In this document: piece after piece, positions 36,132 through 38,186 of the stretch
How positions within the stretch are numbered: position 1 is the first letter of the stretch
Layout of the letters: each line of letters opens with the position of its first letter
IMG/VR virus record: IMGVR_UViG_3300042991_000341
Coordinates: 1 to 39,165 of that record
Length of the DNA: 39,165 nucleotides
Strand: one strand, 5' to 3'
Origin: a virus
The notes under the pieces: model-generated
The model's database searches: none
The model's input: only the letters and a program-made list of their open reading frames with translations
What the model was told of the DNA's origin: nothing
Program-made: the position numbers and the translations under genes

Positions 36132-38186
36132 TTAACTAAATTTGTAAAGCACCATTCCATGCCACCCCTCCTTTTTACTAGTACGAATGTCTGGTAGGTT
36201 CCCGTTCTTGTATAACTCGATACTTTCCGCATATCCCATCGCTTTCACATTTCCACTAAAGTCTACTATCCGAGCGTGTTTTTTCTCTGGATGGATACGT
36301 AAGATACGACCGATCATCTGAGAGTAAAGTGCCAATGAGCGAGTGGGTCGTATCATCACTAAACCATCTAGGCGTGGGTGGTCAAAGCCAGTAGTGAGAC
36401 ACGATACATTTAATACCACTTTGATTTCTCCTTTCTTGAACTTGTCTATAATTTCTTTACGGTCTTTCTTTTTAGTTCCTGCCGATACCACGGCAGAGTT
36501 CTGTATCACTTCACTATATCTAGTTGCTTGTTCAACAGATGTACAGAACACCAAGACGGAATGTGAAATATTAGCGAGTCGAACAATCGCATCTAAGATG
36601 TTTTCTTCATGTGGCAATATAAGAGCTTCATATTGGTCTAGTCGGAAGTCCGACTTTGACTTGTTGATAGGAATACTCTCATGTTGCAGTTTAGTGTTAT
36701 CAAAATAAGTTGGTCTGTGTAGGAAACCTTGTCGTACCATTTCTTGCGTTGGGATATTAAAAATTATGCCACCATTCCAAAAGTTCTCTTTCGCTCGACC
36801 ACGCATCCTAGTGATGACTTTAATTGTAGTCACTTGTTCATCAAAATACGGTGGGGCATACGTAGTGGAAAGTCGAAACGGCGTGGCAGTTACACCCACT
36901 ACTTTCTTAGGAGTAATTTGATTAAGAAACCTTAAGTACATCGTATCAGACATATCACAAGCAACACTGTGACACTCATCTATTATTATTAATGGAAAGT
37001 GTCTAAATAACTCAGGGGTGTTTACGACTGAACCGATTGTAGCTAAGGTTATTTTCTTGACTACTTTCTCACCCATTGATGCCGAATACACACCGATGTC
37101 TTCGGTTGAACAGACCATCTCTAACTTCTCTTTGTTCTGTTCTAGAATCTCGGCTGATGGTTGCAGTACGAGTGTTGGTACATTAAGTTGACGAACAGAA
37201 TCAGCTATTACATAAGACTTGCCACTATTATGTGTTATAAACTTATTCCTTTTTCCAATACAATATGTGTATGGTGCTTCTCGCATACAGATGGAATAGT
37301 AAGGCTCTGAAATTTTGACCTCGAGTTTGCTGTAGCTATTTCGCAAAGTGTCTCCCGTGTGACTTGAGGATATCTTTTTTGAAGGATATCGTAATGCCTC
37401 TTCTTCTCCAACATCTTCCTCCCCTCCATGTTTTTGAGATAGTGTTGTCGTATCTTCTTCCTCGAAAAGTCCCCCAATTTGTAGTTCCGTGGGTGTGTTG
37501 GTATTTTTATTTTGCCTGTCTTGTGTCCAATCCAAGCATTGTATTTTACCGTACACCATTCCAAATTCTCCGCCCTGTTGTCGTTTCTCTTTCCGTTCAA
37601 ATGATTTACTACTGGATGCTTCAGTGGGTTCAATAACCAATTCTCTGCCACAATTCTGTGAACTTTGACTGTATGACCGTTCATCATGGTACGTAAGTAA
37701 CCGTTCGCATCGTGGGCAGGTTTCATTACAGCAACTATGTTTCCCCCGTATTGCCTCGTGGTTAAGAGTCTGCCCGTATTGCTTACAAAGTAATTCGAGC
37801 TGAATCCTTTGGCTCTCTTCCATTTCTCTCCAGATAAGCTGATAGAGCGGATAGAATCCTTCTCCGTTAAAGAAAGGGTGGTCGTAGGTCGTTGTGATTG
37901 TTTCATTCTCATAAGTAAATGATAACATTGGTTTAGGATTTAGACTAGTCCTAAACATTTCATCAATTACGCCAGGAACAGATTTTCTACTATACTCATC
38001 GTAAGAAATTACAATGTCACCACGTTTAACTTCTTGAACTAATTTATATGTACCATCCCACATCGGAATAGAAGTATTTTTTGCTAAACAACCAGTTGGC
38101 AATACTAAAACATCTCGTATTGGTATCTCGTATCTGTCTACGATAGCTTGTACTGCTTGAGATTGGTAAGGACGAAGGGTTAGCAT
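36132..38186 (-). CDS. SF2 DEAH-box helicase interrupted by an intein
   Basis: 684 residues as translated, 396 after splicing. Helicase motifs: Q-motif region LRPYQSQAVQAIVDRYE, motif I PTG-SGKS (split by the intein after PTG), DEAH-like IIIDECHSVA, motif III VVGVTATPFRLS, motif IV LVFCTSVEQATRYSEVI, motif V TTGFDHPRLDGLV and motif VI YSQMIGRILRIHP. It resembles UvsW/RAD25-type helicases that remodel replication and recombination forks. It follows the HTH gene with a 7-nt overlap and precedes a resolvase-like nuclease. The insert at Walker A would abolish ATP binding until removed. Confidence 0.93.
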   Translation of the reverse strand: MLTLRPYQSQAVQAIVDRYEIPIRDVLVLPTGCLAKNTSIPMWDGTYKLVQEVKRGDIVISYDEYSRKSVPGVIDEMFRTSLNPKPMLSFTYENETITTTYDHPFFNGEGFYPLYQLIWREMEESQRIQLELLCKQYGQTLNHEAIRGKHSCCNETCPRCERLLTYHDERSYSQSSQNCGRELVIEPTEASSSKSFERKEKRQQGGEFGMVYGKIQCLDWTQDRQNKNTNTPTELQIGGLFEEEDTTTLSQKHGGEEDVGEEEALRYPSKKISSSHTGDTLRNSYSKLEVKISEPYYSICMREAPYTYCIGKRNKFITHNSGKSYVIADSVRQLNVPTLVLQPSAEILEQNKEKLEMVCSTEDIGVYSASMGEKVVKKITLATIGSVVNTPELFRHFPLIIIDECHSVACDMSDTMYLRFLNQITPKKVVGVTATPFRLSTTYAPPYFDEQVTTIKVITRMRGRAKENFWNGGIIFNIPTQEMVRQGFLHRPTYFDNTKLQHESIPINKSKSDFRLDQYEALILPHEENILDAIVRLANISHSVLVFCTSVEQATRYSEVIQNSAVVSAGTKKKDRKEIIDKFKKGEIKVVLNVSCLTTGFDHPRLDGLVMIRPTRSLALYSQMIGRILRIHPEKKHARIVDFSGNVKAMGYAESIELYKNGNLPDIRTSKKEGWHGMVLYKFS
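37227..38090 (-). other. Intein (288 residues) at the Walker A motif
   Basis: Starts with Cys directly after PTG and ends with His-Asn before the +1 Ser of SGKS. Block A is CLAKNTSIPMWDGTYKLVQE with VKRGDIVISY; block B is TTTYDHPFF (residues about 66-74); block F/G is YTYCIGKRNKFITHN. Both splicing halves are in the helicase frame, which stays open through the whole insert. The middle (about residues 90-255) has no homing-endonuclease motif in this frame but carries an HNH gene in another frame. Confidence 0.92.
37235..37912 (-). CDS. HNH homing endonuclease nested out of frame in the intein
   Basis: 225 residues in the +1 frame relative to the helicase, wholly inside the intein; its TAA ends 8 nt before the intein's last base. 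NUMOD4-type segment SGEKWKRAKGFSSNYFVSNT at about residues 28-47, then VHRIVAENWLLNP, VVNHLNGKRNDNRAENLEWC with the H-N-N residues of HNH_3 nucleases at about 84-120, and a helical basic C-terminus. Family motifs are complete, so it should be an active site-specific nuclease for homing of the intein. No strong Shine-Dalgarno precedes the ATG; expression by internal start or by frameshift is open. Confidence 0.9.
   Translation of the reverse strand: MRMKQSQRPTTTLSLTEKDSIRSISLSGEKWKRAKGFSSNYFVSNTGRLLTTRQYGGNIVAVMKPAHDANGYLRTMMNGHTVKVHRIVAENWLLNPLKHPVVNHLNGKRNDNRAENLEWCTVKYNAWIGHKTGKIKIPTHPRNYKLGDFSRKKIRQHYLKNMEGRKMLEKKRHYDILQKRYPQVTRETLCEIATANSRSKFQSLTIPSVCEKHHTHIVLEKGISL

Follow-up and report, generated by a model that had tools for sequence, protein, structure and literature searches.

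Current descriptions of inteins cover splicing domains that have an in-frame nuclease, splicing domains that lack one, and split forms. In canonical inteins the nuclease is a domain placed at a conserved site (PMC6801210), and in those of the PI-SceI type its coding sequence divides the Hint domain between blocks B and F. Fractured genes, in which a free-standing nuclease lies between the halves of a split intein, are reported to have been described by Dassa et al. in 2009 (cited in PMC7090010). The ShiLan element has an out-of-frame HNH gene within a stop-free insertion of a phage gene, without any splicing domain (PMC11855218).

Here, we analyzed a stretch of viral DNA of 39,165 nucleotides, hereafter the window, in which a helicase gene very likely contains a mobile intein that carries its homing endonuclease gene overprinted in another reading frame rather than fused in frame. 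This reading rests on both frames, the predicted folds, selection on each frame, the conservation of the layout, and the loss of the nuclease in one relative. As in canonical PI-SceI-type inteins, nuclease-coding sequence interrupts the Hint domain between blocks B and F, and homing is predicted; unlike them, the nuclease lies in the other frame as a predicted separate protein, and the in-frame linker is predicted to be disordered and encodes no nuclease. Fractured genes share with the window a nuclease located between the intein halves as its own cistron, but the intein in the window is contiguous, splices in cis by inference, and has its nuclease gene wholly overlapped by the host frame. The ShiLan element likewise consists of an insertion without stops that encodes an HNH protein in another frame, and its disjunct distribution suggests homing. 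It differs from the window in that it has no detectable splicing domain, its insertion is thought to stay in the protein, and its HNH nuclease has flanking zinc fingers, whereas the nuclease in the window is of the NUMOD4, I-HmuI-like type. I-HmuI itself is intron-encoded; the nuclease gene in the window is inside an intein and dual-coding. We found no description of an overprinted intein in the literature searched, which did not cover two possibly relevant works (a 2025 bioRxiv survey of actinobacteriophage inteins and Gorbalenya 1998, Non-canonical inteins; both cited in PMC11855218). The closest precedent found is ShiLan and the nearest by layout are the fractured genes, and the overprinted intein seems to be largely unrecognized.

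The helicase intein and the nuclease gene within it

The host gene is a RadD/SF2-type DNA helicase ORF of 684 residues on the minus strand (36132..38186), matching NCBIfam NF053632 (E 1.9e-62) and phrog_16 (E 1.3e-65), with Helicase_C and ResIII domains matched in Pfam. It is interrupted at Walker A by an intein of 288 residues (37227..38090, minus strand; helicase residues 33-320), whose 864 nt, read from 38090 to 37227, contain no stop. The exteins, residues 1-32 and 321-684, would together form a protein of 396 residues after the predicted splicing. Cys1, block B (TYDHPFF), and a terminal HN followed by the +1 Ser are present in the intein, supported by an alignment of relatives (alignment A3) and by a Hint fold predicted by AlphaFold. 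The insertion point is inside Walker A, between LPTG and SGKS (LPTG/C...HN/SGKS), and the intein-less helicase homologue in Bacteroides phage BS-TP2 has a contiguous VLPTGSGKS. Because intein-less homologues span the join, the criterion of an insertion in a conserved host motif is met.

The Hint domain is encoded in two parts, both on the minus strand. The N-terminal part (intein residues 1-117; 37740..38090) comprises blocks A and B and the helices that follow, and was modeled with pLDDT values of about 85-95 over residues 1-110, declining to 63 for residues 111-120. The C-terminal part (residues 252-288; 37227..37337) comprises blocks F and G and the terminal HN, with pLDDT values of 78-93. 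Between them lies a linker of 134 residues (residues 118-251; 37338..37739, minus strand) that is open in the intein frame, unconserved there, and predicted to be disordered (pLDDT < 50). The folded part of the model matches the structures of inteins and of bacterial intein-like (BIL) domains. The criteria for a Hint domain, namely Cys or Ser at position 1, TxxH in block B, and a C-terminal Asn followed by Cys, Ser, or Thr, are met by C1, TYDH, and HN/S. Pfam Intein_splicing gave no significant match for the window intein itself; relatives such as L054 and L109 match the same family above the cut-off. The intein does not satisfy the criterion for a canonical bifunctional intein, a nuclease in frame between the splicing blocks, since the nuclease is in the +1 frame and the in-frame linker is unconserved and predicted to be disordered. 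Neither is it a fractured gene or a split intein, as the ORF is a single continuous one of 684 codons, nor a ShiLan-type insertion without a splicing domain, as the insertion encodes one.

The nuclease gene (37235..37912, minus strand) encodes 225 residues in the +1 frame relative to the helicase, from an ATG at 37912, with a second ATG at 37906, to a stop at 37237-37235. It contains a NUMOD4 motif (residues 29-75; 37688..37828, minus strand; Pfam PF07463, E 2.5e-5) and an HNH_3 catalytic region (residues 84-126; 37535..37663, minus strand; PF13392, E 1.2e-5), both above the cut-off, and it matches phrog_59 (E 8e-32). Residues H85, H104, N112, and N116 are invariant in 11 aligned members (alignment A5). 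The AlphaFold model, complete without any N-terminal fusion, has I-HmuI (1u3e_M) as its sole significant structural match (E 9.7e-7; 30% identity over 112 columns). With both motifs and the conserved catalytic residues, the criterion for an I-HmuI-like NUMOD4/HNH nuclease is met. The original prediction of a complete NUMOD4/HNH gene out of frame in a mini-intein thus held, with both frames open and clear domains, and its coordinates for the helicase intein and the nuclease were exact.

Selection on the two frames

We estimated how often the helicase frame would be open by chance from 2000 synonymous-codon shuffles of the window nuclease. The shuffled sequences had a mean of 14.2 helicase-frame stops and never 0, which is the observed number. 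A stop-free frame by chance would require a third-position GC above about 0.9, and the value in the window is 0.46. A chance overlap was rejected on the basis of these shuffles and the relatives described below. Sequencing error was rejected as well, because both frames are intact, without any indel, in a close relative on another viral contig (L001), which has the same 864 nt with 19 substitutions. Of these 19 substitutions, 12 alter the intein but leave the nuclease protein unchanged, 4 do the reverse, and 3 change both. As a separate observation, 16 of the 19 fall within 66 nt (window 37616-37681) at the start of the nuclease catalytic region, resembling a small gene-conversion patch. The two contigs also differ outside the intein: L001 has a Mom-family DNA-modification gene (L001:3342-3911; PF25680, E 2.7e-23) between an HTH gene and the helicase, which are adjacent in the window (near 38180), where the Mom-family gene is absent.

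Two pairs of family members showed where each frame is constrained. Counted at intein codon positions 1/2/3, the substitutions between L081 and L087 are 5/1/16 in the N-terminal splicing part, 24/3/3 in the linker, and 3/1/13 in blocks F-G; those between L129 and L130 are 9/8/17, 66/24/10, and 3/3/11, respectively. Intein codon position 1 in the linker corresponds to the nuclease third position. The linker DNA (37338..37739) therefore accumulates mostly nuclease-synonymous substitutions and is selected as nuclease-coding sequence, the nuclease alone being conserved there, whereas in the C-terminal part of the Hint domain the substitutions fall at intein third positions. The splicing blocks are thus under purifying selection in the intein frame, and the middle region is under it in the nuclease frame. 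These patterns and the relatives support the original proposal that selection for splicing has kept the linker stop-free, with splicing itself remaining an inference.

Amino-acid constraint in both frames was found in a segment covering block B and the following helix (37769..37888, minus strand; about 40 codons), which reads ...YQLxWGxMExSQRxQLxLLCEQYG in the intein frame and ...SLSGExWKxAKGxSSNYFVSNMGR in the nuclease frame. Compared with synonymous shuffles, intein-frame conservation reached z = 22.3 and 13.4 in the first two 20-codon windows and 1.4-6.0 afterwards. Since z is high only in the first two windows, strong dual coding extends over about 120 nt. In the remaining linker, the helicase frame is merely kept free of stops, and strong constraint in both frames is limited to the roughly 40 codons after block B and to the ends. 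The original estimate that about 676 nt code twice therefore held only in part: 678 nt are open in both frames, with strong dual constraint over about 120 nt plus the ends. We also considered whether the conserved YQLIWxxMExSQRxQLxLLCxQYG is simply an old intein motif, and rejected this explanation; the conservation exceeds what conservation of the nuclease explains. More distant members have the usual Hint-like strand at that place instead, such as AIRELA in L054.

Relatives in uncultivated viruses and in cultured phages

Of 92 distinct nuclease relatives, most came from scans of IMG/VR with intein and nuclease queries. In 21 of the 92, the nuclease overlaps a Hint domain, always in the +1 frame and always with 0 host-frame stops. 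The other 71 HNH sequences, without an overlapping Hint domain, have a mean of 17.4 stops in that frame and none is open. This division is partly circular, as a Hint domain overlapping a nuclease presupposes some open frame; the shuffles and the substitution patterns are free of this problem. In all 20 full-length members tested, 0 host-frame stops were observed, against 5.6-14.2 expected from synonymous shuffles. The host genes of the 21 are mostly terminase large subunits, together with an SbcC/SMC-like ATPase (L004). Every identified insertion point is a P-loop, and the residue following the intein is S, T, or C, the first of the [S/T/C](x)K[S/T] with which the P-loop motif ends. Ser, Gly, Ala, or Lys replaces the penultimate His in several terminase members (alignment A3).

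All full-length members examined have a nuclease-frame ATG near block B, and in L030 the nuclease frame opens just one codon ahead of its ATG. The Shine-Dalgarno sites vary from a strong one in L004 (GGAGG, 7 nt upstream) to none in the window, where the ATG has no good match; initiation at a Shine-Dalgarno site was hence rejected as an explanation for all members.

Using tblastn against 50,697 phage records, the inteins of the window, L028, L081, and L129 gave no match, and the matches of the L006, L042, and L109 inteins were limited to the Hint N-terminal part of other Hint proteins or inteins. The HNH version was therefore found solely in uncultivated viruses in the searches made, cultured members being known only for the DUF559 family described below. 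A scan of 84,980 bacterial and archaeal genomes returned one ordinary Hint protein, but it relied on short peptide patterns and can miss relatives.

The L109 query pointed to Vibrio phage K391, in which a DEAH-box helicase contains a 356-residue intein (DE/C...HN/CHH) with a 263-codon DUF559 nuclease ORF in the +1 frame (L151:1801-2868, nuclease ORF 2054-2842; further loci L154-L160). This nuclease occurs at 95% identity or higher in 25 Vibrio records, K391 included, and more distant DUF559 nucleases were found in CP-T1, 159E43-1b, 104E43.1, Pseudomonas MR14, and Corynebacterium phi673. The phase is +1 in 8 of 8 loci examined, and all 7 loci tested have 0 host-frame stops versus 4.9-14.7 expected. 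Between L154 and L155, the substitutions at intein positions 1/2/3 are 0/1/4 before the nuclease and 32/5/0 within it. Genes of this family are annotated merely as helicase, hypothetical, coil-containing, or P-loop proteins. Because DUF559 is unrelated by family to HNH, we infer that the architecture evolved at least twice.

The original prediction had implied a one-off case, which was refuted by this family and its unrelated parallel. No relative with an in-frame nuclease was found, all 21 overlapping cases being +1. Intein-less helicase homologues exist (L147 among them), as does a relative that kept the intein and lost most of the nuclease: in L031 (L031:3001-3492), a terminase contains an intein of 164 residues in which most of the overprinted nuclease is deleted and both frames are still open. 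We read L031, from its sequence, as a nuclease-less descendant.

Proposed mechanism, rival explanations, and related layouts

In the mechanism we propose, the ribosome would read the helicase frame straight through the nuclease gene, producing a precursor of 684 residues. The Hint domain (intein residues 1-117 and 252-288) would then splice out, taking the meaningless 134-residue linker with it, and Walker A would be restored in an active helicase of 396 residues. A second initiation at an internal ATG (37912 or 37906) would produce the free 225-residue NUMOD4/HNH nuclease, which is predicted to cut helicase alleles lacking the intein at or near the P-loop coding sequence, and repair from the occupied copy would insert the whole intein. 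Because the linker would be spliced away, its helicase frame need only be stop-free and can hold the nuclease gene. Splicing, translation of the nuclease, cleavage of the target, and homing are all inferred. Against this reading, there are no data on splicing, translation, or cleavage, the window ATG is without a convincing Shine-Dalgarno site, and the penultimate His is replaced in several of the terminase inteins.

The same weakness at the ATG, together with the invariable +1 phase of the nuclease, would also suit programmed +1 frameshifting near block B, by which a fusion of the intein N-terminal part with the nuclease would be made without free initiation. We consider this unlikely, because the full-length members examined all have a nuclease-frame ATG close to block B, the nuclease frame of L030 opens too late to allow much space for a shift site before the ATG, a shared slippery motif was not apparent (without a systematic search), and the nuclease model is complete without a fusion. 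Given the variable Shine-Dalgarno sites, frameshifting or reinitiation might nevertheless operate in some members. Less plausible still is a ShiLan-like element, in which only the nuclease would matter and the helicase frame would be read passively without splicing. Such insertions, with an open host frame and no splicing domain, do exist (PMC11855218), but the host frame here has blocks A, B, and F/G, Cys1, the terminal Asn, and a confident Hint fold matching inteins; the substitutions in the splicing blocks are biased to third positions, and L031 retains its Hint domain after losing most of the nuclease.

Two further explanations can practically be dismissed. Inteins usually have their nuclease domain in frame (PMC6801210), and the locus could be an ordinary HNH intein decaying after two compensating indels, or broken by sequencing error. 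However, the same +1 layout recurs in 21 distinct sequences from other contigs, none in frame; both frames are intact in L001 without an indel; and the nuclease frame is under purifying selection with invariant catalytic residues. The other is a self-splicing group I intron whose HNH ORF is open in the exon frame by coincidence, as NUMOD4/HNH nucleases of the I-HmuI kind are characteristic of group I introns in phages. Rfam gave no match for the window, nor for 14 loci with close free nucleases, and the host frame encodes a conserved Hint domain with a terminal Asn.

With the overprinted mobile intein as the preferred reading, overprinting is likely a general and recurrent architecture of mobile inteins, with at least two origins involving unrelated nucleases (NUMOD4/HNH at P-loops and DUF559 at the DEAH box), always in the +1 frame. 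The linker, removed by splicing, would then be a buffer without a coding role of its own, in which a separate nuclease gene can persist within an uninterrupted and often essential gene, hidden since gene callers report the host gene only. The overlapping-gene intein would be a further arrangement beside those usually described, in which the nuclease is produced independently of the precursor and the linker has no structural constraint to satisfy. Over most of the overlap, absence of stops is all that one frame requires, which makes it an unusually clean case of natural overprinting, useful for studying the origin of overlapping genes. Current annotation overlooks such homing nucleases, also in cultured phages, where they are directly testable.

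The history of the unit is partly recoverable. Distances of the nuclease and the Hint domain co-vary (Mantel r 0.70, 0/2000 permutations), and the window element groups with the inteins of L004 (SMC ATPase) and L021 (terminase) in both trees. This clustering of helicase, SMC ATPase, and terminase inteins indicates that the unit moved between unrelated P-loop genes. A single origin of the overprinted HNH nucleases was not rejected (p-AU 0.50), nor was it shown.

Other layouts were found among the relatives. In L064 (L064:1183-3871), which has the layout of a fractured gene, a primase-helicase (Toprim and DnaB_C) is fractured at Walker A by a split intein, and an HNH of the window's subfamily forms its own cistron between the intein halves, with an ATG that overlaps the stop codon ending the first half (ATG/TGA). 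Close free HNH relatives lie directly upstream of intein-less terminases in L052, L053, L058, and L060. Together with the overprinted inteins, the free-standing, fractured, and nuclease-deleted relatives suggest an evolutionary series in the joining of nuclease and intein.

Across L052, L053, L058, L060, L066, and L094, the free HNH genes are directly upstream of, or one short gene before, intein-less genes for the terminase large subunit, and thus near the P-loop that inteins occupy elsewhere. Split inteins also fracture uvsW of Proteus PM2 and of Salmonella S16 and nrdA of Campylobacter CC_R7 (L148, L149, and L150), where the halves are separated by ORFs of their own; in PM2 and S16 this ORF has a weak TnsA-like match.
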